A DNA stretch of 64,000 bases from Flaviaestuariibacter flavus (GTDB taxonomy: Bacteria; Bacteroidota; Bacteroidia; Chitinophagales; Chitinophagaceae): contig NZ_SJZI01000002.1 in assembly GCF_004337505.1 (NCBI RefSeq), positions 1-64,000 of the forward strand. Direction: 5' to 3'. The stretch's first letter is position 1; each line of letters begins with the position of its first letter. The translations under genes and the position numbers were made by a program. Below, piece after piece: positions 41,248 through 60,797 of this stretch. Below the pieces are notes generated by a model. That model saw only the letters and a list, made by a program, of their open reading frames with translations, was not told where the DNA came from and made no database searches.

Positions 41248-44200
41248 ATGAAACCACTAATTGCGCGACTGCTGCTGCTCCTGCTATTATGCACCGGAGG
41301 CCTGAAGGCTATGGCCCAGGACTTTTCAAACAAGGGAAAGGAGTTCTGGCTGGCCTATTCTTACCATGTGGGTATGCAGTCGGGCACCGGTCTGCCGCAA
41401 ATGACCCTGTACCTTACTTCGGACGTTACCACTACCTATAATGTAGCCATTTTCGGCGGCGCGAACCTGGCCTCCGGCACGCTGACCGCCGGAAGTGTGG
41501 TACAGGTAACTGTGCCTACCACGTATATGGTTAACGACGAAGGCCTGTTTTTGAACCGGGCAATCCGTGTTACCGCCGACAAGCCGATCGTGGTGTACTC
41601 CTATATTACCCGGAGCGCGGCCTCGGCTGCCACCCTTTGCCTGCCGGTTCCGGTACTGGGAAAGGAGTATATGACCACGAGCTTTACGCAGGTTTCGAAT
41701 GAGCCGGGGTCCAACTCTTATATCACGATTGTGGCGGTCGACAGCAACACAACCGTGGAGATCAAGCCGACCGCGGCCACCAAGAGCGGCTGGGCTGCCG
41801 GGAGTACCCAGATCATCACCCTACAGAAGGGACAGGTGTACCAGGTGCTTGGCTTTGAAAACAATGCCCCGTCCGGGGGAACTTATTCCGGTGTCGATCT
41901 CAGCGGCACCACGGTGCGCTCTATTTCAAGCGGCACAGGCGGCTGTAAGCGCATCGCCGTGTTTTCCGGCTCCGGCAAGATCCGGATTCCGCAGAGCGGT
42001 TGCAGCAACAACTCGTCCGACAACCTGTACCAGCAACTTTATCCGATTTCCACCTGGGGTAAGAAATACCTGACGGTTCCCAGCAAGAACAACCCGTTCA
42101 ATTACTACCGGATCTACCGGAGCGTCGGTTCCGCCAATATCACCCTGAACGGCACCCCGATCCCTGCCGGGTCTTTTGTAAACAATTACTACACGCTACC
42201 TGTCGGCAACGTGCCTAACCGGATCGAATCCGACCAGCCCATCAGCGTCGTCCAGTATTTCACCACCCAGGGGTGCAACGGCAACCCATCCGGCAAGCCG
42301 TATGATCCCGATATGATCGTGCTGAACCCGGTGGAGCAAAACATCAACAAGGTAACCCTGGTGAGCTCGAACCTCGCGGCCGCTTCCACGGCGCAGTACC
42401 CGCACCAGCACCATATCCACGTTATTATTCCCAACACCGGTACGGCGATTTCTTCGTTCCGCTTCGACGGCAACCCCGTTCCGGCCTCCATCTGGACAGT
42501 CCACCCCGCCGACCCTTCGTACTCCTACGCCTATATGGCGGATATCAGCGGGGGCGGAAATACGATCACCCAGGGCTACCACACGCTGGCCAGCGACTCC
42601 GGCTTTCTTGCCCTGGCCTATGGCTATGCCAACGCGGAAAGCTACGGCTACTCGGCCGGCGCCAATGTGAAAGACCTGTACCAGTATGCCGGTATCCGCA
42701 ACCAGTACGCCACCGTCAACTTCCCGGCAACCTGCCGCAATACGCCGTTTAAGTTTTCCATGACCTTCCCGTACCAGCCCACCCAGATCCAGTGGCAGTT
42801 TAACGGGCTTTTTTCCGATGTGACCGTGAACACGCCGGTGGCCGATTCGGTATTCCTGGTCAACGGGAAAACGCTCTACCGTTACACGCTGGCCGGCACC
42901 TACGTGACGCCGAACATCGGTACCTTCCCGATCCGGATCCTGGCGCAGAACCCCACCACCGACGGCTGCGCCGGCGAGCAGGAGATCAACTACGACCTCC
43001 AGGTGATCGAGCGGCCGAAGACCGAGTACACCATGACCACCAGCGGCTGCGTGACCGACCCGGTGCAGTTCGCCGATGGAAGCAACAGCCAGGGGCGTAC
43101 GATCGTGAATTATTTCTGGAGCTTCGGAGCCGGAGGCTATAACCCGGTTACCCAGGCCAATACCAGCTTTACCTTTCCCACAGCGGGCAGCTATACCATC
43201 AATCATTTTGTGGTGACGGATATCGGCTGTGTGTCGGACACCCTGCCGAAAACGCTGACCCTGGCGCAGCCCCCGGCCGCCGGCTTCGATGTGGTTGGAC
43301 CCTATTGCGAAGACAGCCCCCTGACCTTCACCGACCAGTCGTCGGGTAACGGCAGCTCCATTACCCAATGGAGCTGGGACTTCGGTGACGGCAGCACCCC
43401 GGTCACACTCGGGTCGGGTGTGGCGCAGCAGCACCTTTTTGCCAACCCCGGCACCTACGTGGTATCGCTGGTGGTAAAATCCTCGGGTTGTACGAGCACG
43501 GCATTCACCAAAACCATTACAGTCAACCCGCGCCCCGCGGCGGGATTCACCTTTGGAAATGCCTGCCTTCCTACGGGCGCGCTGGCGTTTACCAACAGCT
43601 CTACGGTTACCGCGGGCGGACCGCTTACCTACGCCTGGAGCTTTGGACCGGCGGGAGCGGTGAGTGCCAGCGCAAACCCGATATATAATTATGCGACTGT
43701 TGGGCCGCACCAGGTGGAGCTCATTGCGAAGTCGGCGGCGGGCTGTTCGGATACCTCCCGGCAGACTGTCAATACCGTTTATGCAGCCCCGACATCGGCG
43801 TTCGGACGCAGTGTTTCGCCGATCGACAGCCTCTACTGCCCTAATTCTGCTATGGGGTTGACGAGTATGGCGCTCTCACCGGGAAGCTCCACCAGCGAAT
43901 GGCATTGGAGCTTTGGCGATGGCAACACCTCCACGGCAATGAACCCAGTGATCGCCTACCCGACACCCGGCACCTATATCATCAAACATTGGGTGATCTC
44001 GGCCATCGGCTGCGTTTCCGATACTACCCGCGATACGGTCACCATCGTTCCGCCGCCGGTTTCGTCTTTTACCGTAAATGCCCTGCGCTGTGAACGTGAT
44101 ACACTGCGGGCGCTTTCCGTATCGACTCCCGGTGCGGGCGCGTTAACGCAGTACAAGTGGGAGGTAAACGGCTCGCCGGCCGGCACCACATCGGCGCTCG

Positions 44201-46389
44201 CCTACCTGCCGGCAACTGCCGGCAACTACACGATCCGTCTCCAGGTTGGTTCGAATATCAATTGTGAAGACGATACAACGATCGTGATAGCGGTACACCC
44301 CAAGCCGGTCCCCGACTTTACCCTGCCGAATGTGTGTCTCCCCGCCGGAACCGCAACGTTTACGAACACCTCCGGTATTGCCGGCGGCACTACCGCCGAC
44401 ATGAGCTACCAATGGAGCTTCGGTAATGGAAATACCGCCACCACCGTCAACGGGAATACAACCTATTCTACGACCGGGCCATTCAACGTAAAGCTGACCG
44501 CCACTTCGAACAACGGTTGTGTGCAGGACACGGTGAAAGTGCTCAGCACGGTATATGCCGAGCCCAAAGCGCTGTTTTCGATCAATGCGGGCGAGGTCTG
44601 CATCGGCGCCGCCTTTACGTTTACCGATGCGAGCACGGCGCCTGCTTCGACGGTAACGGGCTGGAACTGGAGCTTTGGTGATGGCACTTTTTCTACCAGC
44701 CAGAACCCGGTAAAAACCTATTTGAGTCCCGGCACCTACACCGTGCGGCTGCAGGTGACCTCGGCCATCGGCTGCGTGTCGGCATTCCGCGATACCACAG
44801 TTACGGTTAATCGCCTGCCCTCGCCTGCCTTTGGTACCAGCGCGGTGCTCTGCGCCACCCGCGCCATTACGTTTACCGATGCTTCTACTGCCAATTCGGG
44901 TATCCTGCAAAGCTGGAGCTGGGATTTCGGAGACGGAAGCACGGTGCAGACCGGGCAGGGGCCGCAGCAACATGCTTATCCCGATGCGGGTAATTATGGC
45001 GTATCGCTGACCGTTGTCACCGATAAAGGTTGCACGGCCACGCGCACCGATACGGTGCGTGTGCACCAGCGTCCGCGGGCCGGCTTCGTGATCCCTCAGA
45101 ACTGTCTCGCCGATCCCTACTCGCAGTTTACCGACACGAGTTCCGTGACCGGTCCGGATGCGATATCGGGGTGGTTGTGGAATTTTGGTGATGCGCTTGC
45201 CAACCCTGCTTCCAGCAACTTCTCCGTGCTGCAAAACCCGCGGCACCGGTATACGGCCGTAGGGCCCTACCGGGCCAGCCTCGAGGTGGTGACCAACTTC
45301 GGCTGCCGCGACACCATTCGCCAGGACCTGTTCGTTTCCAACACCTCGCCGGTGCCGGTACTTGCCGTGCTGCAGGGTGCCGTGTGCAGCAACGACTCGG
45401 TGCGGATCAAGGATTCTTCCTGGGTGGATATCGGCAATATCGTCCGCCTCGATATCTGGTGGGATGCCGCCGACCCCTCGAGTGTACAGACCGTGCTGAA
45501 CCCGGTGCTCAATACGGTTTATGCGCACCGTTATCCTGAATTCTTCAGCCCGGCGAACCGAGACCTCAATATCAAGCTGGTAGCCTATTCCGGTACCACC
45601 TGCGCCATCGATGTCACCCGACCGCTGCGCCTGCTCGCAACGCCGGAAGTGCGCTTTGCCCCGCTCACTGATGTATGCGCCAATGTGCCGTCTTTCAGCT
45701 TCAACCAGGGATCTTCGGCCAACAGCGCCGTCGTGCCGGGGCAGCCGCTTTATAGCGGTGCCGGCGTTAACGCTGCCGGGCTCTTCAATCCCCGGACGGC
45801 CGGAATCGGTATCCACGACATCACCTATACCTTCCGCGGCAACAATGGCTGCGTCAACGACAGTGTGCATACGATCGAAGTATTTGACATCCCCACCGTG
45901 GATGCCGGCCCCGACAAATTCGTGCTGGAGGGAGGCGTTGATTCGCTACTCGGCTCGGGCGTCGGTTCCAACGTCCGCTACCTCTGGAGCCCGGCCCGCT
46001 TCCTGAATACGGATACGGTGGCGCATCCTGCGGTGCGGCCGGCCGATGACCAGCTGTATACACTCACCGTTACGTCGGAAGAAGGGTGTTTTGCTACCGA
46101 CCAGGTATTTGTGAAGCTGCTGCGCCTGCCGGTCATCCCGAACGTATTTACACCGAACGGCGACGGCGTTAATGACCGCTGGGTCATCAATCACCTCGAG
46201 TCCTACCCGGGCGCCACGGTGGAAGTTTATAACCGTTATGGCCAGCTCGTATTCCGCTCGGTTAACTATACCACGGCCTGGGATGGCACGCTGAATGGCC
46301 AGCTGCTTCCCACCGGAACCTATTATTATATCATCAACCCGAAGAACGGCCGCAAGCAGATGACCGGCTTCGTAGATCTTATCCGCTGA
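41248..46389 (+). CDS. Giant PKD-repeat surface protein with IgGFc-binding-type N-terminus and gliding-motility C-terminal domain
   Basis: 1713 residues. The signal peptide is MKPLIARLLLLLLLCTGGLK onward. Residues about 27-480 match an IgGFc-binding-type domain (DFSNKGKEFWLAYSYHVGM, RAIRVTADKPIVVYSYITRS). From about 590 to 1380 there are roughly nine PKD domains with W.FGDG-type cores (WSWDFGDGS, WHWSFGDGNTS, WNWSFGDGTFS). The end is the CHU_C/gliding-motility domain, with VIPNVFTPNGDGVNDRW and EVYNRYGQLVF. That domain is a T9SS (type B) export signal, so the protein is displayed at the surface, probably as an adhesin. PorP/SprF follows at 5 nt. Confidence 0.93.
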   Translation: MKPLIARLLLLLLLCTGGLKAMAQDFSNKGKEFWLAYSYHVGMQSGTGLPQMTLYLTSDVTTTYNVAIFGGANLASGTLTAGSVVQVTVPTTYMVNDEGLFLNRAIRVTADKPIVVYSYITRSAASAATLCLPVPVLGKEYMTTSFTQVSNEPGSNSYITIVAVDSNTTVEIKPTAATKSGWAAGSTQIITLQKGQVYQVLGFENNAPSGGTYSGVDLSGTTVRSISSGTGGCKRIAVFSGSGKIRIPQSGCSNNSSDNLYQQLYPISTWGKKYLTVPSKNNPFNYYRIYRSVGSANITLNGTPIPAGSFVNNYYTLPVGNVPNRIESDQPISVVQYFTTQGCNGNPSGKPYDPDMIVLNPVEQNINKVTLVSSNLAAASTAQYPHQHHIHVIIPNTGTAISSFRFDGNPVPASIWTVHPADPSYSYAYMADISGGGNTITQGYHTLASDSGFLALAYGYANAESYGYSAGANVKDLYQYAGIRNQYATVNFPATCRNTPFKFSMTFPYQPTQIQWQFNGLFSDVTVNTPVADSVFLVNGKTLYRYTLAGTYVTPNIGTFPIRILAQNPTTDGCAGEQEINYDLQVIERPKTEYTMTTSGCVTDPVQFADGSNSQGRTIVNYFWSFGAGGYNPVTQANTSFTFPTAGSYTINHFVVTDIGCVSDTLPKTLTLAQPPAAGFDVVGPYCEDSPLTFTDQSSGNGSSITQWSWDFGDGSTPVTLGSGVAQQHLFANPGTYVVSLVVKSSGCTSTAFTKTITVNPRPAAGFTFGNACLPTGALAFTNSSTVTAGGPLTYAWSFGPAGAVSASANPIYNYATVGPHQVELIAKSAAGCSDTSRQTVNTVYAAPTSAFGRSVSPIDSLYCPNSAMGLTSMALSPGSSTSEWHWSFGDGNTSTAMNPVIAYPTPGTYIIKHWVISAIGCVSDTTRDTVTIVPPPVSSFTVNALRCERDTLRALSVSTPGAGALTQYKWEVNGSPAGTTSALAYLPATAGNYTIRLQVGSNINCEDDTTIVIAVHPKPVPDFTLPNVCLPAGTATFTNTSGIAGGTTADMSYQWSFGNGNTATTVNGNTTYSTTGPFNVKLTATSNNGCVQDTVKVLSTVYAEPKALFSINAGEVCIGAAFTFTDASTAPASTVTGWNWSFGDGTFSTSQNPVKTYLSPGTYTVRLQVTSAIGCVSAFRDTTVTVNRLPSPAFGTSAVLCATRAITFTDASTANSGILQSWSWDFGDGSTVQTGQGPQQHAYPDAGNYGVSLTVVTDKGCTATRTDTVRVHQRPRAGFVIPQNCLADPYSQFTDTSSVTGPDAISGWLWNFGDALANPASSNFSVLQNPRHRYTAVGPYRASLEVVTNFGCRDTIRQDLFVSNTSPVPVLAVLQGAVCSNDSVRIKDSSWVDIGNIVRLDIWWDAADPSSVQTVLNPVLNTVYAHRYPEFFSPANRDLNIKLVAYSGTTCAIDVTRPLRLLATPEVRFAPLTDVCANVPSFSFNQGSSANSAVVPGQPLYSGAGVNAAGLFNPRTAGIGIHDITYTFRGNNGCVNDSVHTIEVFDIPTVDAGPDKFVLEGGVDSLLGSGVGSNVRYLWSPARFLNTDTVAHPAVRPADDQLYTLTVTSEEGCFATDQVFVKLLRLPVIPNVFTPNGDGVNDRWVINHLESYPGATVEVYNRYGQLVFRSVNYTTAWDGTLNGQLLPTGTYYYIINPKNGRKQMTGFVDLIR

Positions 46390-46394
46390 CAACC

Positions 46395-47417
46395 ATGAAC
46401 AAGCATCTCTGCACCGCACTGGGTCTTGTTGCTTCGCTGGCTGCCGCCGGCCAGCAGCGGCCGCACTATACGCAGTACCTGCTCAACCAGTATATCATCA
46501 ACCCGGCGCTGACGGGGATCGAGAATTACACCGATGTAAAGCTCAGTATCCGCGACCAGTGGGTAGGACTGAACGGCGCGCCGCGCACTTCCTACCTCAC
46601 GATCCACAAACCGATCGGCAAGCAGGATTACAAGCCATCGCCGACCGGGTTTGCCGTACCGGGCGAAAACCCGCGGGGCGAGGGCTACTGGGATGGCTAT
46701 ACCGCCTCGGCGCCACATGCAGGTATCGGCCTTGTGTTGCTCAATGACCGCACCGGCAACCTGAACTGCTTCAGCGCCGATGTTTCGTATGCTTACCACC
46801 TCGGGCTCAGTCCGAAGCTGAATCTATCGGCCGGCTTTTCGGGCGGCATTTCCAAAATGAGCTACGACCGCTCAAAGGCAACGCCCGCGGTTGCAGGTGA
46901 TGTTGCCCTCGGCGATGTCAATGTGTACCTGAGCAAGTTTCGTCCCGACCTGAACCTGGGCGTTTATCTCTATTCTTCCGATTTCTTCGCCGGGATATCG
47001 GCGCAACAGGTAATCCCGCAGAAGTACGTGGTGGCCGACGATGCCACCTTCAACAAAGGGAAGCTGGTGCCCCACCTTTTCGGTACCGCGGGATATCGCT
47101 TCCTGCTAAGTGAAGACATCAATGCCACGCCCTCGGTGATGGTGAAGTATGTGGCCGGCGCACCGCTGCCGATGCAATATGACCTGAACCTGAAACTGCA
47201 GTACCAGGACCTGCTCTGGCTGGGCGGCGGCTACCGGGTGCGGGAAGGCTATTCCGGCATGCTGGGGCTCAATGTGGGAAATACGTTCAACGTGAGCTAT
47301 TCGTACGATTATTCCACCACGCCAATCAATACCGCCAGCCGCGGCACCCACGAGATCATGATCGGTTTCCTGATCGGAAACCACTATGGCGATACCTGCC
47401 CGAGGAACATCTGGTAA
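46395..47417 (+). CDS. PorP/SprF family T9SS outer-membrane protein
   Basis: 340 residues. Signal peptide MNKHLCTALGLVASLAAAGQ, then the PorP/SprF start QRPHYTQYLLNQYIINPALT. The remainder is a beta-barrel. SprF/PorP proteins usually accompany a gene whose product carries the type B (CHU_C) sorting domain and are needed for that product's secretion or anchoring. The 5-nt spacing to the giant gene strongly supports such a pair here. The array at 47419 begins one base after the stop. Confidence 0.95.
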   Translation: MNKHLCTALGLVASLAAAGQQRPHYTQYLLNQYIINPALTGIENYTDVKLSIRDQWVGLNGAPRTSYLTIHKPIGKQDYKPSPTGFAVPGENPRGEGYWDGYTASAPHAGIGLVLLNDRTGNLNCFSADVSYAYHLGLSPKLNLSAGFSGGISKMSYDRSKATPAVAGDVALGDVNVYLSKFRPDLNLGVYLYSSDFFAGISAQQVIPQKYVVADDATFNKGKLVPHLFGTAGYRFLLSEDINATPSVMVKYVAGAPLPMQYDLNLKLQYQDLLWLGGGYRVREGYSGMLGLNVGNTFNVSYSYDYSTTPINTASRGTHEIMIGFLIGNHYGDTCPRNIW

Positions 47418-51533: not shown

Positions 51534-53783
51534 TTATCGATAGGTGACTGTGTTCTCCGGGATGGCAACGGCCGCGGTTGTCTTAGTAGACACTTCGCTT
51601 GCGGGTTTCGCTGCACGGTCATCATTTTTATCTTTAAACATAGTAGCGAGTGTGGGGGCGATCACCAAGGAAACGATCGACATCAGCTTGATGAGGATGT
51701 TCATCGAGGGGCCCGAAGTGTCCTTGAAGGGGTCGCCTACGGTGTCGCCGGTTACAGAAGCCTTGTGGGGATCCGAACCTTTGAAATATTTCTGTCCGTT
51801 GATGTCCACGCCTTTTTCAAAGCTCTTCTTGGCATTATCCCAAGCGCCGCCGGCGTTGTTCTGGAACATACCCATCAGCACCCCGCTAACGGTTGCACCG
51901 GCCAGGAAGCCGCCGAGGGCCTCGGGGCCGAGCAGGAAGCCGATCACCAGGGGCGAGATGATGGCAATCGCACCGGGGAGCATCATTTTGCGGATCGAAG
52001 CCTCGGTGGAAATGGCCACGCACTTGTCGTACTCAGGCTTGCCTTTTCCTTCCATGATGCCTTTGATTTCGCGGAACTGGCGGCGAACTTCCTCCACCAT
52101 GGCCATGGCGGCCTCACCCACGGCACGGATGGCCAGGGAAGAGAAGATGAAGGGGATCATGCCACCGATGAACAGCGAAGCAAGTACATCGGCTTTATAG
52201 ATATTGATGCCGTCCATGTTGAGGCCGTTGGCGTTGATCACACCTACGTAAGCCGCAAACAGGGCGAGGGCCGTGAGGGCAGCCGAAGCGATGGCAAAGC
52301 CTTTACCGGTAGCCGCCGTGGTGTTGCCCACCGCGTCGAGGGTATCGGTTTTTTCGCGCACTTCCTTGGGCAGCTCGCTCATTTCAGCGATACCGCCGGC
52401 GTTGTCGGCGATGGGGCCGAAGGCGTCGATGGCCAGCTGCATGGCGGTGGTGGCCATCATACCGGCAGCGGCGATGGCAACACCATAGAGACCGGCGAAC
52501 TTATAAGAGCCGTAGATACCGCCGGCGAGCACGAGGATGGGGAGGAAGGTCGATTCCATGCCCACTGCCAGGCCACCGATTACGTTGGTAGCGTGGCCGG
52601 TGCCGCTCTGGCGCACGATGCTCAGCACCGGGCGCTTACCCATGGCCGTATAGTATTCGGTGATGATGCTCATGAGCGTACCCACCACGAGGCCTACGAT
52701 GATGGCATAGAATACATCCATGCGGTCAAAGGCGAAGCCGCGCAGGGTCATCTGGCCCTGGGGCAGGATGTTGGTGCACAGGAGGTACGAAGCAATGGCT
52801 GTGAGGATGATCGAGCCCCAGTTGCCCATGTTGAGCGCACGCTGCACAACAGCGGTGGAGATCGGCGAGTCTTCCGAAATACGTACGAAGAAGGTGCCGA
52901 TGATCGAGAAGATGATACCTACGCCGGCAATCAGCATCGGCAGCAGGATGGGCGAGAAGCCGTTGAAGCCGTCGCTCAGGTTGGTGCCGCCGGGGGCGGT
53001 TACTTCGTGGCCCAGCACGATGGTGGCCAGTACGGTAGCTACATAAGAGCCGAAAAGGTCGGCGCCCATGCCGGCAACGTCGCCTACGTTGTCGCCTACG
53101 TTGTCGGCGATGGTGGCAGGGTTGCGCGGGTCATCTTCAGGGATGCCGGCTTCTACCTTGCCTACAAGGTCGGCGCCTACGTCGGCCGCCTTAGTATAGA
53201 TACCGCCACCCACGCGGGCGAAGAGCGCGATGCTCTCAGCGCCGAGCGAGAAGCCGGTGAGTACTTCGATGGCGCGGGTCACCGTATGATCGGTGGCCAT
53301 GGCATCGGGAGCGAATACATGGAGGAGCACGATGAAAACACTACCGAGACCAAGCACGGCGAGGCCCGCAACACCCATACCCATCACGGCACCGCCGGTG
53401 AAGGATACGTTCAGTGCCTTGGCCAGCGAGGTGCGGGCGGCGTGGGCAGTACGCACGTTGGCCTTGGTGGCGGCGCGCATACCGATGTAGCCGGCGAGGG
53501 CGCTGAAGAAGGCCCCGATAAGGAAGGCAATGGCGATCGACCAGTGCGATTCCGCACTGCGGGTACCCATGTAACCAAGGAGCACAGCTACGATGATGCC
53601 GAAATAGGCAAGCAGTTTCCACTCGGCGCGCAGAAAGGCCATGGCGCCTTCGGCGATGTAGTTGCCGATCTCACGCATGCGGTCGGTTCCGTCATCCTGC
53701 TTTGATACCCAGGAAAATTTCCAGAACGTGTAAAGCAATCCGATCAAGCCCATCACGGGCACCAGGTACATGTACGAATTCAT
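51534..53783 (-). CDS. hppA: Membrane-bound pyrophosphatase (ion-pumping)
   Basis: 749 residues with about 16 membrane helices. The active-site signature [20 protein letters not shown] is near 218. [20 protein letters not shown] follows. It hydrolyses PPi and pumps Na+ or H+ across the inner membrane. The selectivity site reads [10 protein letters not shown], with Ala where potassium-independent enzymes carry Lys, so the enzyme should be K+-dependent (family knowledge). A -7 box lies upstream at 53860. Confidence 0.96.
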
Positions 53784-54432: not shown

Positions 54433-55278
54433 TTAATCCGCCACCGGGAATCGTCCTTCCTCGAGATCTGCATAGATGCTCAGGAGGATATTCCGGTCGT
54501 CTACAACCCACTCACCGGTAGCTGCGCCCCGGTAGCTGTTGGTGGCGAGGTAATGTTCGTACATCCGGTAGGCCTTCAGCGCGTCCTGTTTATTATAATA
54601 GGTCTCCGTCCACTTTCTCGGGACGATATGCAGCGGGTGAATGCCGATGCCGCCGTCATAGATCTTTACCGGGCCCTGCGAAAATTCAAAAGACACCACA
54701 TCCTGTTTGCGTGATTTTGCTGCCTGGAGCAGGTAGATCAGGTGGCGGAAATACCCGCCGAGGCGGGCCTGCAGCTGGCGACTGTTTTCGCTGCTGTCCG
54801 GGCGAATCCGCCAGCCGTTGTTAGAAGGATGATAGGGATCTTCTTGGTAACTGCTCAACGGCGTGGTTGTCTGCAGGTAGCTCCGGACAATGTTTCGATC
54901 AGTCAACATAATGCGTGCTTTCTTATCCGCCACTGTCTCAACCGAAACAACGCGTTCGCTGCCATCATTGTATTGGAGCAGCAGCTGCTGCTTCCGTTCG
55001 TTAAAACGCCAGTGCCCATGCGCATACGCTTTGGCGCCACCCAGCTCGCTGAACGTACTGTCGGGGAAAAAAGACAGTACCTGCCCGTCGGCGATCATCC
55101 GCTTCATTTTCGCCAGGTTGGCGAGTTCGTTGGCCTGCCCGTCTTTGTCATGTCCTTTCGACTCCACATCGTACAGTGCCCAGGAACCGGACAGGTTCTC
55201 CACGGTGACATCGTGCCTGTTTCCGGAGCACGAAAAAAGCAACAAAAACAGGGAAGCAAAAACTAAGGAGCGTAACAA
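54433..55278 (-). CDS. Lipoprotein, lipocalin-like N-terminal part (unknown)
   Basis: About 281 residues from a TTG at 55278; no ATG opens the signal LLRSLVFASLFLLLFSC, so the start is uncertain. After the lipobox Cys comes a segment VENLSGSWALYDVESKG that resembles the first strand of lipocalin-like domains, then a charged region ending FPVAD. No firm family. It diverges from the protease operon at 55403 and could be its partner or regulator by position only. Confidence 0.65.
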   Translation of the reverse strand: MLRSLVFASLFLLLFSCSGNRHDVTVENLSGSWALYDVESKGHDKDGQANELANLAKMKRMIADGQVLSFFPDSTFSELGGAKAYAHGHWRFNERKQQLLLQYNDGSERVVSVETVADKKARIMLTDRNIVRSYLQTTTPLSSYQEDPYHPSNNGWRIRPDSSENSRQLQARLGGYFRHLIYLLQAAKSRKQDVVSFEFSQGPVKIYDGGIGIHPLHIVPRKWTETYYNKQDALKAYRMYEHYLATNSYRGAATGEWVVDDRNILLSIYADLEEGRFPVAD

Positions 55279-55402: not shown

Positions 55403-56347
55403 ATGCCCAATCGAAAACGGAAGCACCTGCGCCGGCTTCGCCGGCAGCGGAAACCGCGGCTATCCAGCGCCGTTATCGCACGTCTTGCCCTGGAGCAGCA
55501 CGGCGCCGCGCTGCGCGCCCGCTTTTCCCAGATCGCCGCCATCAGCGATGCCGCCGTGCCCGGCACCGGCGCGGCGCAGCACGTGCTGGCTATTTACCTG
55601 CATCATTCCGACTGTGCCCGGATACCCTATGCGCTCCCGGTGCGCCTGCCCGGCGGTGGTCTCACCGCCATTGCCACGGAACTCGTGCCCGGGGTAGGGG
55701 CAGGCACGGTGCACATCTGCCAGCAGGACGAGATCTGCTGCAGCACCGACAACCCGGGCTCTGTGGGCTGCGTGGTGCGCGATGCCTACGGGGAGCATAA
55801 GGTGGCCACCGCCGGTCACGTTTTTTCTTCGGGCAGCCTGCGCAGCTACAACGGCGAGCTCGCCCCGACGGAGACCCACCCGGCGCTGGTAAACGGGCAA
55901 GCGATCGGCAACTGGTTTTTCCAGTTGATCGACTGGAAGACCGACCTGGCGCTGGGGGATATCGACAATTATATTCCCGGCGAGACCCTGCTGACCTTTC
56001 CCGGTCATTACACGGTGAGCGATGCCGATGTGGGCCGCACGCGCGTCCGCGTGGTGTCGGGCCGCTGGTCGCCGCCGGTACGCGATGCATGGATTCTCGA
56101 CCACAACACCGCCTGGGAAGTGGCTTACCGTGACGGCACCGCTACGCGTAATAATATTATCGTCATCGGCAGCGCGCCGAACCGCGCAGATGCCACTACG
56201 GTTTCGCGCGGCGGCGACTCGGGCGGCTGCGTGTACGAGCCGGTAAGCGGCCGACTTGTCGGGCTGATCCTGGGTGGCAATAACCGCTTTACCTGGGTGC
56301 TCCCGATCGGGGAAGTGCTGCAACGATTCAATTATGAACTCGCCTAA
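55403..56347 (+). CDS. Trypsin-like serine protease without signal peptide
   Basis: 314 residues. The chymotrypsin-fold triad is visible: His139 in ATAGHVF, Asp181 in WKTDLALGD, Ser273 in RGGDSGGCVYEP. The N-terminus is strongly basic (MPNRKRKHLRRLRRQRKPRL) and has no signal peptide or membrane helix. Five Cys lie at about 106, 112, 113, 123 and 276. It is the first gene of a three-gene operon (9 nt to the next). Nothing in the sequence says what it cuts. A phage or toxin-antitoxin origin is possible but not indicated. Confidence 0.85.
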   Translation: MPNRKRKHLRRLRRQRKPRLSSAVIARLALEQHGAALRARFSQIAAISDAAVPGTGAAQHVLAIYLHHSDCARIPYALPVRLPGGGLTAIATELVPGVGAGTVHICQQDEICCSTDNPGSVGCVVRDAYGEHKVATAGHVFSSGSLRSYNGELAPTETHPALVNGQAIGNWFFQLIDWKTDLALGDIDNYIPGETLLTFPGHYTVSDADVGRTRVRVVSGRWSPPVRDAWILDHNTAWEVAYRDGTATRNNIIVIGSAPNRADATTVSRGGDSGGCVYEPVSGRLVGLILGGNNRFTWVLPIGEVLQRFNYELA

Positions 56348-56356
56348 TCAATCCAA

Positions 56357-58774
56357 ATGAAGATCCAACGACTGCTTCTTTCCATGTTGCTGCTTTCCGT
56401 GTGCGCTGCGGCGCAGGAAAAGGCACTGGTGACCTGGCAAAACGGGGCGCCGCGTATCGTAAATAAAATTTACCGCCTTCCCTTCGCGCTTCATTTCTCG
56501 CGCGACTTTGCCGGTAAGCGCCTCGCGTTGGTGAATGCGGGCAACAACGACACCGTCGTGGCCGCCCGGTTTGGCTCCGCCGACCTGGGGACCTTCGAAG
56601 GAACGGGTGAATACCGGGTGCCGGTAGTGGCACCAGGCACCGCGCAGCTGCTTGGCAACAGCCAGCCCTTTTCCGATACGGGCTTTCGCATTTTCATTGA
56701 CGGGAAGGCGCTTCCGGTGACCGTTCGCTTTACCCGGTCTGCGGCAGTGCCCGGCGATGAAGTGGCGGCGCGCGCCTATCGCTTCAGCTACCAGCCCGGG
56801 TCAGTAGTACTCGATGCGCTCAAGCTGCGGGAGCTGCAACTTGCTGGCGGATCCCGCGACTCGGTACAGGCTTTTGTTCAATATATTCTTCGCGCATACG
56901 ATCTCGAAGGATCCAATAGCCAGGAGAATGTTTATATCAGCCGGGTGCTTGGCCCGCTGCTGGTGGAAAAGGGCGCCGCGCAAAGCGGTGGCGGACTCAT
57001 AAATAACGTGCTGTCCTCCGTGGGCAATGTAGATGTTACCGGCTTCGCTGACGGCCTTGCCCGCTTTATTGTAAAGCGGACGAAACAGGAGCTGAGCATG
57101 GCCTTTTTCCAGCGTTTCCGGGAGCGGCTCGATTCGCTGCCGGACCTCAAAGGCGTTTTCCCCGAAACGCACCAGCTGCTGATGGCCATCGACCAGCAGG
57201 TATACGATTACAATAGTTACATCAACAACCTGCGCGCCGGCTTCCGTTCCGACCTGCTGCGGATCGACGAGCGCCTGCCCGCAGTGGTGACGAATCACCC
57301 GGCCTATTTCGGGGCTAACGTTACCAACTTTTCGCTGGGGCTTGCCCTGCGCTCCGGGTGTTATGTCTCATCGTCGCTGCGCAAGGACATGCACCCGGGC
57401 GATGTGCTCGAATCTTTCCCGATGGAGTATTTCGCAGCGGGCGACAGCAGCATCTCGGGACGTCTTGCCGGTTTGCGCGGCGGGCTGCAGGCCTTGCAGC
57501 TGCTTAGCTATTCCTGCCGGGAGACGGATACCGCACGACACCGCTACTGGGTGGGGATGGATGACTTTCGTGGATTGACCCGCGACAAGCAGTCGCTGCA
57601 GCTTTTCCTGGGGCTGCTGATCGAAGTGGCCAAAGGGCGCTACGGTTCGGTGGCTTTCGGCGGCGGCACCAACCTGTACGGACTGCTGAACGATCCGCTG
57701 CTCTATGAAAAAATCGACCGTGACCTGACTACGCTGCAGGCTTTCCGCAACTTCCTCCTTCGTTTCGGCGGACGGGTAAGCGATCTTAACGGGATGGCGG
57801 GCGCTTTAAATGCGGCTATCGGCGATTCGGCACATGCGGAGGTCTATGTAAAATATTTCAATGCCTGCACCGACCTGCTGGAAACGGGATTCACCGCGCT
57901 TGAACTCCCGGGGCTCCGCGGGCTGCCCGATGCCGGCGAAGTGCACGGGCTTGCCGCCTCCTGGCTCGGTGTGGCGCGCCAGGCCTCCGACCTGTCGTCG
58001 GCGATTGTACGAAAACGCTATGCCGAAGCCGTGAATGCGTTGGTGGGACTATACGGGAATGTGCTGCGGCTTTCATCGCCGCCGGTTGTTGACACGGTAG
58101 CAGCGCGCACGACACCGATGCTTATGGCCAACGCGGCCGAGCCGGGAACGCGGTCCACGCTGAACGCATTTGTACGGTATGGCTCCGTGATGGTGGGCCT
58201 CGTGGAGGCGCGGAACAGCGAGGAGGTAGCGGCCGTCATCGAAGCAGCCGTGCTGCCGCCGGGCAGTGCGCGCGTAAAGCGGACCATGCCCGTCAGCATT
58301 TCGCTCAATGCTTACTGCGGACTTTTTTCGGGCAACGAGGTGATCCTCGGGCTCGACGACAACCGGCCTTTTTCACGCTGGAATGCCTTCGGAGTAGCCG
58401 CTCCCGTGGGTGTTGCCTACAGCGAGGCGGATGCCGTATTGCCCTGGCCGCTCAGTCGCGTCAAAGCGCTGCGCTGGAAGGGCGCTTCAGCCTCCTGGTT
58501 TGTTTCCGTGCTCGACCTGGGTGCTGTCGCGGCCTTCCGCTTCGGCGACAACACTACCGAGCAGGTACCGACGATCCGGCTTCGCGATATTTTTTCGCCG
58601 GGCATATTCTGGTCGGTCGGTTTGCCACGCAGCCCGCTGTCGGTGAACCTGGGCATTCAAACGGGACCGAACCTGCGCACCGTTAAAGCGGCAGGGAATG
58701 ATTTGGCAAATGGCCGCTATGTGCGGTACAGTGCCGCGCTCTGCGTTGACCTGCCCTTGCTAAACTTGAAGTAA
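56357..58774 (+). CDS. 805-residue exported protein of unknown family
   Basis: The signal peptide is MKIQRLLLSMLLLSVCAAAQ. Residues about 25-145 look beta-rich. About 150-640 is mostly helical, with few recognisable landmarks. The last roughly 160 residues look like repeated amphipathic strands (FFSGNEVILGLDD, WFVSVLDLGAVAAFRFGDN, SVNLGIQTGPNL), similar to a barrel or beta-sandwich, and end LPLLNLK. I do not recognise a family. Its stop overlaps the next start by 1 nt (TAATG), so it is translationally coupled to the Gmad2 lipoprotein. Confidence 0.85.
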   Translation: MKIQRLLLSMLLLSVCAAAQEKALVTWQNGAPRIVNKIYRLPFALHFSRDFAGKRLALVNAGNNDTVVAARFGSADLGTFEGTGEYRVPVVAPGTAQLLGNSQPFSDTGFRIFIDGKALPVTVRFTRSAAVPGDEVAARAYRFSYQPGSVVLDALKLRELQLAGGSRDSVQAFVQYILRAYDLEGSNSQENVYISRVLGPLLVEKGAAQSGGGLINNVLSSVGNVDVTGFADGLARFIVKRTKQELSMAFFQRFRERLDSLPDLKGVFPETHQLLMAIDQQVYDYNSYINNLRAGFRSDLLRIDERLPAVVTNHPAYFGANVTNFSLGLALRSGCYVSSSLRKDMHPGDVLESFPMEYFAAGDSSISGRLAGLRGGLQALQLLSYSCRETDTARHRYWVGMDDFRGLTRDKQSLQLFLGLLIEVAKGRYGSVAFGGGTNLYGLLNDPLLYEKIDRDLTTLQAFRNFLLRFGGRVSDLNGMAGALNAAIGDSAHAEVYVKYFNACTDLLETGFTALELPGLRGLPDAGEVHGLAASWLGVARQASDLSSAIVRKRYAEAVNALVGLYGNVLRLSSPPVVDTVAARTTPMLMANAAEPGTRSTLNAFVRYGSVMVGLVEARNSEEVAAVIEAAVLPPGSARVKRTMPVSISLNAYCGLFSGNEVILGLDDNRPFSRWNAFGVAAPVGVAYSEADAVLPWPLSRVKALRWKGASASWFVSVLDLGAVAAFRFGDNTTEQVPTIRLRDIFSPGIFWSVGLPRSPLSVNLGIQTGPNLRTVKAAGNDLANGRYVRYSAALCVDLPLLNLK

Positions 58775-59271
58775 TGAAACACCACGTATTAGTCCTGCTC
58801 TTTTTGTTTGCCGCCTGCGGTCATGATGCGAATAAGGAAAAGCCCGACGTGTCCGCCGCGCCGGTGGGCGTCGATGCACCCTTCGAAAACAAAGGCAGGT
58901 CTGACAGCGTCAAAACAGTTGCAGGGGCCGCACACACCGGCATCCCGGACACGTTGACGGTGGAGCAAAGGAACGGCACCGTGCTGCATTCCGGGCAGAT
59001 CATACGCGGAAAGGCGCGCGGCCTATTTTACTTCGAGGCGCAATTCCTGCTGCGGCTTTTCGACAGCAGCGGCCGGCAGCTGGCCATGGCACCGGCAACG
59101 GCCGAAGGCGACTGGATGACCACCAGCTGGGTGCCATTCAGTGGCCGGCTTCAATGGAAAAATTACAATGGGCCGGGCAGGCTGGTATATGAGAAAGCAA
59201 ATGCCTCCGGCGACCCTGAGCGCGACCGGAGCTATTCGGTGCCGGTGCTGCTTGTAGAAAAAGAAAAATAA
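58774..59271 (+). CDS. Gmad2-domain lipoprotein
   Basis: 165 residues. The lipobox is LFLFAAC (Cys15). After a polar linker, residues about 65-160 match the Gmad2 immunoglobulin-like domain: GQIIRGKARGLFYFEAQFLL, then GDWMTTSWVPFSGRLQW and YSVPVLLVEKE. Gmad2 is found in spore germination and other extracellular proteins as an interaction domain. It shares an operon with the trypsin-like protease and the 805-residue protein, so the three probably act together at the envelope. Confidence 0.88.
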   Translation: MKHHVLVLLFLFAACGHDANKEKPDVSAAPVGVDAPFENKGRSDSVKTVAGAAHTGIPDTLTVEQRNGTVLHSGQIIRGKARGLFYFEAQFLLRLFDSSGRQLAMAPATAEGDWMTTSWVPFSGRLQWKNYNGPGRLVYEKANASGDPERDRSYSVPVLLVEKEK

Positions 59272-59291: not shown

Positions 59292-60797
59292 TTACGGGTA
59301 GAGCTGCCGGAATGCCGCACCGAGCCGGGCCACCAGGTCGCCCGGGAGCAGTGACTCATAAGACTGGCGCTCTACGGCAAGGTCACCGGCCTTGCCGTGC
59401 AGCCACACGCCAACAAGGGCCGCGTCTTCGGCACCATAACCCTGCGCGAGCAGGGCCGTGAGCAGGCCGGTGAGTACGTCGCCGGAGCCGCCTTTTGCCA
59501 TGCCGGCATTGCCGGTGGTATTGAAATAGCCGGAGCCAGTAGGTGAAGCGATAAAGGTGTGGTGTCCTTTAAGAAGCACTACCGATTGCAGGCGCTCCGC
59601 TGCCGCGAGCGCCGTTTCTATCCTGTCAAAATCGGAGTCATGCGCGCCGAACAGCCGGTCAAATTCTTTCGGGTGCGGCGTGAGGATGGAGCCAGCGGGC
59701 AGCAGCGACATAAGTGATTCGTCCTTCGCCAGCAGGTTCAAGGCATCCGCGTCGAGCACAAACGGCACCTGAAATTTTGCCAGGCAGGAGCGCAGCATTG
59801 CTGCCGTTTGCGTGCTGGTACCGATGCCGGGGCCGATGCCGGCGCAATTGTAACGGCTGGTTTCCCCGGGAAGGGTGGTCAGTCGGGTCTCGTCCGGGTC
59901 GGGCAGTGCCATGGCCTCCGGAAGTGCAGTTTGCAGGATGCCGACGCCGCAGCGCGGCACGTGGCAGGAGAGGAGTCCCGCGCCCCCGCGGAGGCAGGCA
60001 GTGGCCGCCATGAGCGCGGCACCCATTTTCCCGAGGGAGCCAGCCGCCAGGTACGCATGACCGAAGTTGCCCTTGTGGGCAAAGCGGTTTCGGGGGCGGA
60101 AGCGGGATTTTACCAGGGTGGCGGTTGCCAGCTGGAAGCGTGTTTCGGTGGCGGATTCGAAAGCAGGGGAAAGGCCTATGTCCAGAATATGGACTTCTCC
60201 GGTAAAGGGCGCGTTCTCCTGGAGCAGCAATCCCAGTTTGGGCGCGGCGAAGGTCAGCGTGTGTGTGGCCAGTAGCACCGGGTTACCGACGGCGCTACGA
60301 TCGGCAAACAGCCCGCTGGGAAGATCGATTGCAACGCGTGTGTTCGGAAGGCCGTTAAGGTGTTCCACCAGCCTTGCGGCATGGCCGCTGAGTGGTGTAT
60401 TCAGCCCCGTACCGAATAGCGCGTCCACCACGACGGCTCCCGCTGGCACATCCGGGATCGCATCGCCCGCCGCCAGCAAAAAGATCGCGCCGGAGGCGGC
60501 CTGCAGGCGCTTCAGGTTTTCCAGAAAATCGGGTGAGCCCTGACGCCGGCTTTCGAGAATGACCACCCCGGCACGCCGGCCGGCGGCCAGCAGCATCCGC
60601 GCGATGGCCAGCCCGTCTCCGCCATTGTTACCCATGCCGCAAAAAACCATGAAACCGGTTTCCTGCCCGAAATGAGCGAGCAGCCAATCGGCGCAGCGCC
60701 CGGCGGCCCGCTCCATGAGGTCGATCGACAATACGGGCTCATGGCGGATGGTGTACGCATCCCAGGCACGCATCTGTTCGGCCGAGAAAATCTTCAT
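59292..60797 (-). CDS. nnr: Bifunctional NAD(P)H-hydrate epimerase / ADP-dependent hydrate dehydratase
   Basis: 501 residues. The N-terminal YjeF_N epimerase domain (about 1-215) has CGMGNNGGDGLAIARML. The C-terminal ribokinase-like dehydratase domain (about 220-500) has RGGAGLLSCHVPR and GMAKGGSGDVLTGLLTALL. It repairs damaged NAD(P)H in the cytoplasm. The start MKIFSAEQMRAWDAY is canonical. It converges with the Gmad2 gene with only about 20 bp between. Confidence 0.97.
   Translation of the reverse strand: MKIFSAEQMRAWDAYTIRHEPVLSIDLMERAAGRCADWLLAHFGQETGFMVFCGMGNNGGDGLAIARMLLAAGRRAGVVILESRRQGSPDFLENLKRLQAASGAIFLLAAGDAIPDVPAGAVVVDALFGTGLNTPLSGHAARLVEHLNGLPNTRVAIDLPSGLFADRSAVGNPVLLATHTLTFAAPKLGLLLQENAPFTGEVHILDIGLSPAFESATETRFQLATATLVKSRFRPRNRFAHKGNFGHAYLAAGSLGKMGAALMAATACLRGGAGLLSCHVPRCGVGILQTALPEAMALPDPDETRLTTLPGETSRYNCAGIGPGIGTSTQTAAMLRSCLAKFQVPFVLDADALNLLAKDESLMSLLPAGSILTPHPKEFDRLFGAHDSDFDRIETALAAAERLQSVVLLKGHHTFIASPTGSGYFNTTGNAGMAKGGSGDVLTGLLTALLAQGYGAEDAALVGVWLHGKAGDLAVERQSYESLLPGDLVARLGAAFRQLYP

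Follow-up and report, generated by a model that had tools for sequence, protein, structure and literature searches.

This analysis concerns a stretch of 64,000 nucleotides (nt) from Flaviaestuariibacter flavus (contig NZ_SJZI01000002.1, positions 1 to 64,000), referred to here as the window, in which a gene for a trypsin-like serine peptidase precedes a gene for an exported protein of 805 amino acids (aa), named C. A serine peptidase gene was found directly upstream of C, on the same strand, for 67 of 92 C genes, compared with a background of 3 of 999 other genes of the same loci, and the layout is therefore not due to chance. The initial annotation of the window had proposed an undescribed envelope-related unit made up of the peptidase, C, a Gmad2 lipoprotein and possibly a divergently transcribed lipoprotein. 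This stands for the peptidase and C, which are conserved together, and fails for both lipoproteins, so that conservation covers two genes of the locus and extends to neither a third nor a fourth:

55403–56347, + strand: S1 (trypsin-like) peptidase, 314 aa; open reading frame (ORF) with the triad His139-Asp181-Ser273
56357–58774, + strand: C, exported protein, 805 aa; ORF, no known family

A profile of C found 96 genes, and 92 remained after four duplicate loci had been dropped. These include the C of the window, a split gene in L110 is counted twice, and close relatives among them are not independent (e.g. L102/L103, L108/L129 and L048–L050; L-numbers are loci and G-numbers genomes). Neighbouring peptidases were recognised using local S1 and S8 profiles built from 11 and 6 neighbour peptidases, respectively, and in the loci kept out of profile training an S1 or S8 gene was found upstream of C in 51 of 76. 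Among the 92, the upstream gene encoded an S8 (subtilisin-like) peptidase in 40, an unfused S1 peptidase in 14, and an S1 peptidase fused to A, a membrane protein described below, in 13. The two genes lie at most 20 nt apart in 63 of the 67 pairs and overlap by 4 nt in 20. The combination that had seemed odd in the window, a cytoplasmic-looking protease beside an exported protein, thus recurs across the Bacteroidota.

A fresh sample of 11 new genomes, obtained by a search of the phylum, was examined in the same way. The order A-S8-C was found in four of them (L173, L174, L175 and L176; the S8 gene of L176 was found by listing ORFs), and these are the four longest single-piece C matches of the sample. 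In L177, the fifth-longest, C is accompanied by no A and no peptidase. No S1 or S8 gene was detected directly upstream by the local profiles in the remaining six genomes, where the matches to C are partial or in two pieces; the two pieces found in G537 and G440 jointly cover most of C. In L181 a Trypsin_2 gene whose product starts like an exported protein lies upstream of C, and in L178 a caspase gene lies directly downstream. The link between the peptidase and C looks strong in the core clade and looser beyond it.

Exchange, catalysis and location of the peptidase

A tree was made of 66 C proteins whose neighbour is an S1 or S8 peptidase. Along it the neighbour switches between the two types 10 times (21 times in shuffles), and at least five of the 10 switches are forced by well-supported branches. 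The tree is a quick one, with support from the Shimodaira-Hasegawa-like approximate likelihood ratio test (SH-aLRT) only and some long branches. The C of the window groups with that of L128 from Flavobacterium humi, which also has an S1 neighbour (SH-aLRT 95), in a group of four that includes the S8 loci L121 and L078. A few relatives have peptidases of other families near C. Among the loci without an upstream S1 or S8 match, L060 has a papain-like C39/C70 peptidase upstream of C, L113 has an M10/M12 metallopeptidase there (its near-copy L114 has a gene of equal length and start in that place), and L058 has a trypsin-like gene downstream; in L104 (7596–9503), one of the four loci with the neighbour on the opposite strand, a caspase (C14) fused to an FGE-sulfatase domain is encoded divergently from C.

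Every one of the 40 S8 and 27 S1 neighbours keeps the letters of the catalytic triad in an alignment-based test, which supersedes an earlier test using regular expressions (20 of 40 S8, 18 of 27 S1). The context of the triad motifs is odd in some S8 rows, mostly from Saprospiraceae. As non-homologous enzymes exchange in one slot, proteolysis itself would be the function, and these sequences appear to conserve proteolysis rather than any one fold.

Among the 54 peptidases not fused to A, 47 have no hydrophobic N-terminus, and the seven that do are all of the S1 type. By eye, the hydrophobic N-termini of the L128, L085, L083 and L088 peptidases read as membrane helices.

The features initially reported for the window peptidase were all recovered. 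Its His139, Asp181 and Ser273 (in GGDSGG) line up with the catalytic residues of its relatives, its N-terminus is not strongly hydrophobic, consistent with the lack of a signal peptide, and 11 of its residues 1–19 are Lys or Arg. There was no direct match to it in Pfam, PADLOC or NCBIfam. It aligns with the peptidases of L128 (32% over 301 aa), L112 (37% over 298 aa), L088 (24% over 258 aa, E 2e-10) and L065 (E 2e-14). The peptidase of L138 has a trypsin-type Pfam match above cut-off (2.4e-8), while those of L065, L083 and L088 have weak Trypsin or Trypsin_2 matches below it. The alignment with the L128 peptidase, which is encoded upstream of C, begins just past the basic stretch of the window protein (residue 19) and past the membrane helices of the L128 protein (residue 145).

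Proteins C and A and the SH3b-like partners

C was correctly taken to be an exported protein of no recognised family. It has a hydrophobic N-terminus with a signal-peptide-like start, MKIQRLLLSMLLLSVCAAAQ (by eye), and matched no family in Pfam (above cut-off), NCBIfam or PADLOC. The N-terminus is hydrophobic in 66 of the 67 C proteins that have an S1 or S8 neighbour. In an AlphaFold2 model (mean predicted local distance difference test 74.1, predicted template modelling score 0.60), a signal helix is followed by an N-terminal part that contains beta structure and is poorly modelled, then by a helical body (residues 228–631) and a beta domain (646–803). Residues 636–803 weakly resemble the outer membrane barrels OmpX (Z 5.6, 102 residues aligned, root-mean-square deviation (rmsd) 8.1), OmpA (Z 5.4, 106 aligned, rmsd 6.1), NspA (Z 5.3, 105 aligned, rmsd 5.0) and Ail (Z 5.0, 100 aligned, rmsd 6.2). 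Judging from the model, C probably sits in the outer membrane, via a putative C-terminal barrel of the eight-strand type. The weakest relatives of C share its C-terminal 200 residues. A C-like gene of 1180 aa in a Saprospiraceae metagenome-assembled genome (MAG) adjoins a T4 gp19 tail-tube-like gene (L131:8815-13365), and a similar gene of 1166 aa in L123 has no gp19-like neighbour in view. A link to type VI secretion systems (T6SS) or contractile tails was set aside, as the other genes at L131 look metabolic (by eye).

C was found in 31 of 244 genomes of the family (Chitinophagaceae), in one of 18 of the genus (the host alone) and in 16 of 395 of an even sample of the phylum, the host being included in each count. 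Scanning named genomes yielded 64 loci, most of them from Bacteroidota, including Flavobacterium, Chitinophaga, Mucilaginibacter, Niastella, Saprospiraceae and MAGs. Those from outside the phylum were one KSB1, one weak match in Spirochaetaceae and one MAG labelled Williamsia. Because the spread is so patchy, it suggests that the C unit is accessory and exchanged. The possibility that it is a mobile cassette of plasmids or phages was discarded: the C of the window had no plasmid match, and C and A of L121 had no phage match (none for A among 50,697 phage records). The A of the host and that of L121 matched 12 and 5 plasmid records, respectively.

A is a family of membrane proteins with a conserved LGAPFWFDLLNK-like stretch, encoded within three genes upstream of C in 42 of the 92 loci. 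No family in Pfam or NCBIfam matched it above cut-off, and there were weak stray matches only. Unfused members are mostly about 330–630 aa long. A is predicted to be helical, a model gave no informative fold match, and its sequence suggests three transmembrane helices with the N-terminus out and the C-terminus in. Within the family, A is found in 20 of the 31 genomes with C and in 23 of the 213 others (Fisher p 2.5e-10, uncorrected for kinship).

The A of the host lies on another contig than the window (contig C8, L069:9352-12221), where it overlaps by 4 nt a gene for a 461 aa protein that combines Amidase_2, SH3b-like and GH19 domains and lacks an evident signal peptide; the two may possibly form a lysis or envelope cassette of their own. 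When 20 places with A and without C were fetched, A was seen in 18 by the gene-calling script. A close follower on the same strand was found in 10 of these, and no coupled hydrolase was seen in eight. The followers at such places, among those scanned, included S1, S8, GH46, GH19, patatin, amidohydrolase and Amidase_2 proteins. In nine plasmid regions from other bacteria, the genes near A encoded an amidase in two, a patatin in one, a cell wall hydrolase in one and a vanadium haloperoxidase in three, and nothing was clearly coupled to A in those from Vitreoscilla and Nostoc. In the three haloperoxidase cases, plasmids of Rhizobium (L168), Paracoccus (L171) and Agrobacterium (L172), A is downstream of the vanadium-dependent haloperoxidase gene, directly in two and with two small genes between in Paracoccus.

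Other operon genes in the C loci (111 scanned with Pfam of 121 listed) included those for patatin (7), GH46 (5), GH25 (4), Amidase_2 (4) and CHAP (3) proteins. Two SH3b-like hydrolase-type genes stand in tandem between A and C in L044, L048, L049, L050, L078, L081 and L093; in L048 they encode a GH25 muramidase followed by an S8 peptidase. A and the SH3b-like domain may form a modular platform that elsewhere carries muramidases and amidases, with lipases nearby.

The SH3b-like N-terminal domain shared by many of these partners has its best PDB match in 8b2f, an SH3-like cell wall binding domain (E 0.0097), followed by weak matches to an SH3b chain (E 0.08) and a GH24 muramidase (E 0.1). Of 33 A proteins with an SH3b-like partner encoded within the next two genes, 29 end in Gly. 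Without such a partner, this ending was seen in three of 17 unfused A proteins and in none of 13 A-S1 fusions. This correlation, seen among related sequences, suggests that the SH3b-like domain may dock to the tail of A and that covalent fusion would replace docking in the A-S1 proteins.

Neighbouring genes in the window

The two lipoprotein genes that flank the pair are:

58774–59271, + strand: Gmad2-domain lipoprotein, 165 aa; ORF, Pfam PF10648; resident neighbour
54433–55278, − strand: divergent lipoprotein gene; lies within an ORF; unrelated neighbour

The tight packing of the three genes on the + strand is real, the ORF coordinates giving a gap of 9 nt between the peptidase and C genes and an overlap of 1 nt (TAATG) between C and the Gmad2 gene. 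The third protein is indeed a Gmad2 lipoprotein, with the lipobox LFAAC (by eye) and a match to PF10648 of 29.3 bits (cut-off 25.7). Its membership of the unit was not borne out. A homologue (49% identical, with a Pfam Gmad2 match) is found in the same interval of the congener G248, whose genome has no C, and adjoins a gene 93% identical to window 51534–53783 (an H+-pyrophosphatase, named by eye). No homologue of the window protease or of C was found among the genes called in that interval. Relatives of the Gmad2 protein were found in two of the 244 family genomes, the host included, and it is probably a resident neighbour outside the unit. Between the genes matching window 51534–53783 and 59292–60797, the contents of the G248 interval (L165:2037-7447) differ from those of the host, the Gmad2 lipoprotein excepted, and the interval looks like a variable site.

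Gmad2 is amongst the domain architectures that include the inhibitor-like BsuPI domain in the part of a study of a Bacillus intracellular protease inhibitor used here (PMC3901451). A role as inhibitor of the protease was considered for the window protein and dropped, as the G248 homologue is in a genome without C and, in the stretch read, without a homologue of the protease; it is at most a weak possibility.

Relatives of the divergent lipoprotein, which had also been put forward as a possible member, are present in 56 of the 244 family genomes (the host included). None of those listed is beside C except in the window, and the nearest other one is about 31 kb from C (G070).

Elsewhere in the window (41248–47417), a gene for a 1713 aa exported protein is closely followed by one for a 340 aa protein that reads like PorP/SprF of gliding or type IX secretion loci (by eye).

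A possible trans-envelope module

Starting from the linkage, the exchange of peptidases, the intact triads and the fusions to A, we tentatively propose that a trans-envelope sensor-effector module is built around the peptidase and C, the peptidase acting as the effector from the cytoplasm. This is the likeliest of the readings considered, yet it may well prove wrong. C would be exported and anchored in the outer membrane by its predicted C-terminal barrel, and its helical body would occupy the periplasm. The predicted place of the serine peptidase is the cytoplasmic side, and in many relatives it would be held at the inner membrane by A, through fusion or the predicted docking of the SH3b-like domain, or by transmembrane helices of its own. 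We infer that an event felt by C, or the loss of C, would be relayed to the peptidase directly or via A, and that the peptidase, once released or activated, would cleave cellular proteins broadly. The muramidases, amidases and patatin lipases found in related cassettes would serve as further effectors or as substitutes for the peptidase. More doubtful is the proposal that the Bacteroidota have here a trans-envelope alarm or self-destruct system of a new class, in which a barrel protein controls a membrane-held peptidase of interchangeable family on the modular platform of A and SH3b-like domain.

Several observations weigh against the sensor-effector module. No S1 or S8 gene is directly upstream of 25 of the 92 C genes (18 with none, one with A only, four with the gene on the opposite strand and two at a contig edge), the count of those with none being an upper bound, as genes were called with a simple script that is crude and missed the S8 gene of L176. 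In five of the 11 fresh genomes no adjacent peptidase was recognised, and C can thus occur without one. The window peptidase has neither a fusion to A nor an SH3b-like domain as its route to the membrane, and of its three relatives outside the host in the family sample (E ≤ 0.001), those in G138 and G201 are in genomes without a C match, leaving G029 as the only one with C. The L095 peptidase starts like an exported protein, maybe with a signal peptide (by eye). Structure prediction, which might have revealed a relative of C, gave a resemblance to barrels that is weak (Z 5.0–5.6) and no Foldseek match at E ≤ 0.001. It is hard to see how peptidoglycan hydrolases in the cytoplasm could act as effectors without a breach of the inner membrane. 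Finally, PADLOC matched none of the window genes and gave one stray match in 47 C proteins, and among 25 of the 46 families listed for operon neighbours it gave single matches only, none recurring.

The point about peptidoglycan hydrolases bears also on the idea that A in the inner membrane and C in the outer membrane form a secretion device, exporting hydrolases that lack a signal peptide and are recognised by the SH3b-like domain, for antibacterial or nutritional ends. Such enzymes must leave the cytoplasm to act, and muramidases and amidases without a signal peptide argue for some route across the inner membrane. The idea would also accommodate a single SH3b-like N-terminal domain fronting unrelated S1, S8, GH25, GH46 and GH19 catalytic domains, and the Gly ending of A, at 29 of 33 with an SH3b-like partner and 3 of 30 otherwise. 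However, a peptidase covalently fused to A, as in 13 loci, is not simple cargo, 50 of the 92 C genes have no A within the three upstream genes, and no ATPase or known secretion component was matched in A or C. We therefore regard secretion as rather unlikely. The tight spacing, the nearly constant upstream position of the peptidase and the fact that some kind of peptidase is the usual companion of C would suit regulated processing, in which the peptidase would clip C, or some other protein of the envelope, ahead of export or in the course of it, for maturation or quality control. A cytoplasmic enzyme would, however, no longer reach C once it had been exported, and a fixed cleavage site would resist the repeated swaps between trypsin-like and subtilisin-like enzymes. 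As S1 and S8 peptidases have different folds and swap in one slot, a broad effector is favoured over fixed processing, which we consider unlikely.

Swappable catalytic domains are also what would be expected if the hydrolases were toxins and C an envelope-located immunity or receptor protein, and a Tli3-type T6SS immunity domain was found in two of 111 neighbours. Against this, C is large, its weakest relatives have in common a C-terminal region rather than the whole protein, the peptidase is fused to A in some loci, and no delivery domain was found among the Pfam matches of the singly scanned hydrolases. A toxin-immunity arrangement is highly improbable. That the genes are neighbours by chance could be argued from the few relatives of the window protease, one of the three being in a genome with C, and is scarcely credible given the excess over background, the tight gaps and the fresh sample. 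Chance is refuted for the peptidase-C pair as a type and stands for the two lipoprotein genes.

The sensor-effector module shares features with several known arrangements. The closest published system found is System 3 of Kaur et al. 2020. In the portion drawn on here (PMC7159879), it has a core of NucA and trypsin, in part with EAD1 adaptors, which are linked to its lysozyme and papain-like domains, and is mostly from alphaproteobacteria. Trypsin-like peptidases (some fused to transmembrane segments), S8 peptidases and lysozyme or papain-like peptidoglycan enzymes in operons are common to both. The unit described here differs from that account in belonging to Bacteroidota and in having no NucA/EAD1 core; it has instead the membrane protein A and an exported protein of the outer-membrane type. 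No NucA-type endonuclease was seen among the 25 most frequent of 103 Pfam families (any other family being in at most 2 of 111 operon neighbours), and there is none in the window operon. No EAD match was seen in the singly scanned peptidases or in the 25 of 103 neighbour families listed. On one Hymenobacter plasmid, a gene for a DNA/RNA non-specific endonuclease lies two genes upstream of A, which tells against the NucA difference. In the sections used of a paper on bacterial gasdermin operons (PMC9079055), a protease cuts gasdermin to give membrane pores, and one conserved gene is likewise paired with a protease, caspase-like or, in Lysobacter, trypsin-like. Unlike gasdermin as presented there, C has a signal peptide and a barrel-like domain, and it matched no gasdermin model in Pfam or PADLOC.

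HtrA/DegP proteases also have an S1 His-Asp-Ser triad, and DegP is exported to the periplasm. The window peptidase differs in lacking a signal peptide and adjoining C, and the L083 peptidase gave one HtrA/DegP-type match in NCBIfam, far below cut-off. In holin-endolysin cassettes a peptidoglycan hydrolase without a signal peptide adjoins a membrane protein, and the pair of A and amidase-GH19 in the host is similar. Here, in contrast, unfused A is mostly about 330–630 aa long, that of L121 has no phage match, and at other loci the place of the hydrolase is taken by a peptidase.

No description of the peptidase-C pair was found in the literature searched, chiefly outside subscription journals, and we regard the pair as undescribed, with C (Pfam, NCBIfam and PADLOC) and A (Pfam and NCBIfam) outside the known families in the libraries searched. 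The evidence points to a candidate protein-cutting system acting across the cell envelope. A peptidase without a signal peptide that is genetically bound to an outer-membrane-type protein raises the question of how two compartments communicate, and the correlation between the tail of A and the SH3b-like domain is a candidate docking code. Should the pair turn out to work as an effector system, the repertoire of known protease-coupled conflict systems would grow to include outer-membrane surveillance and protease effectors.

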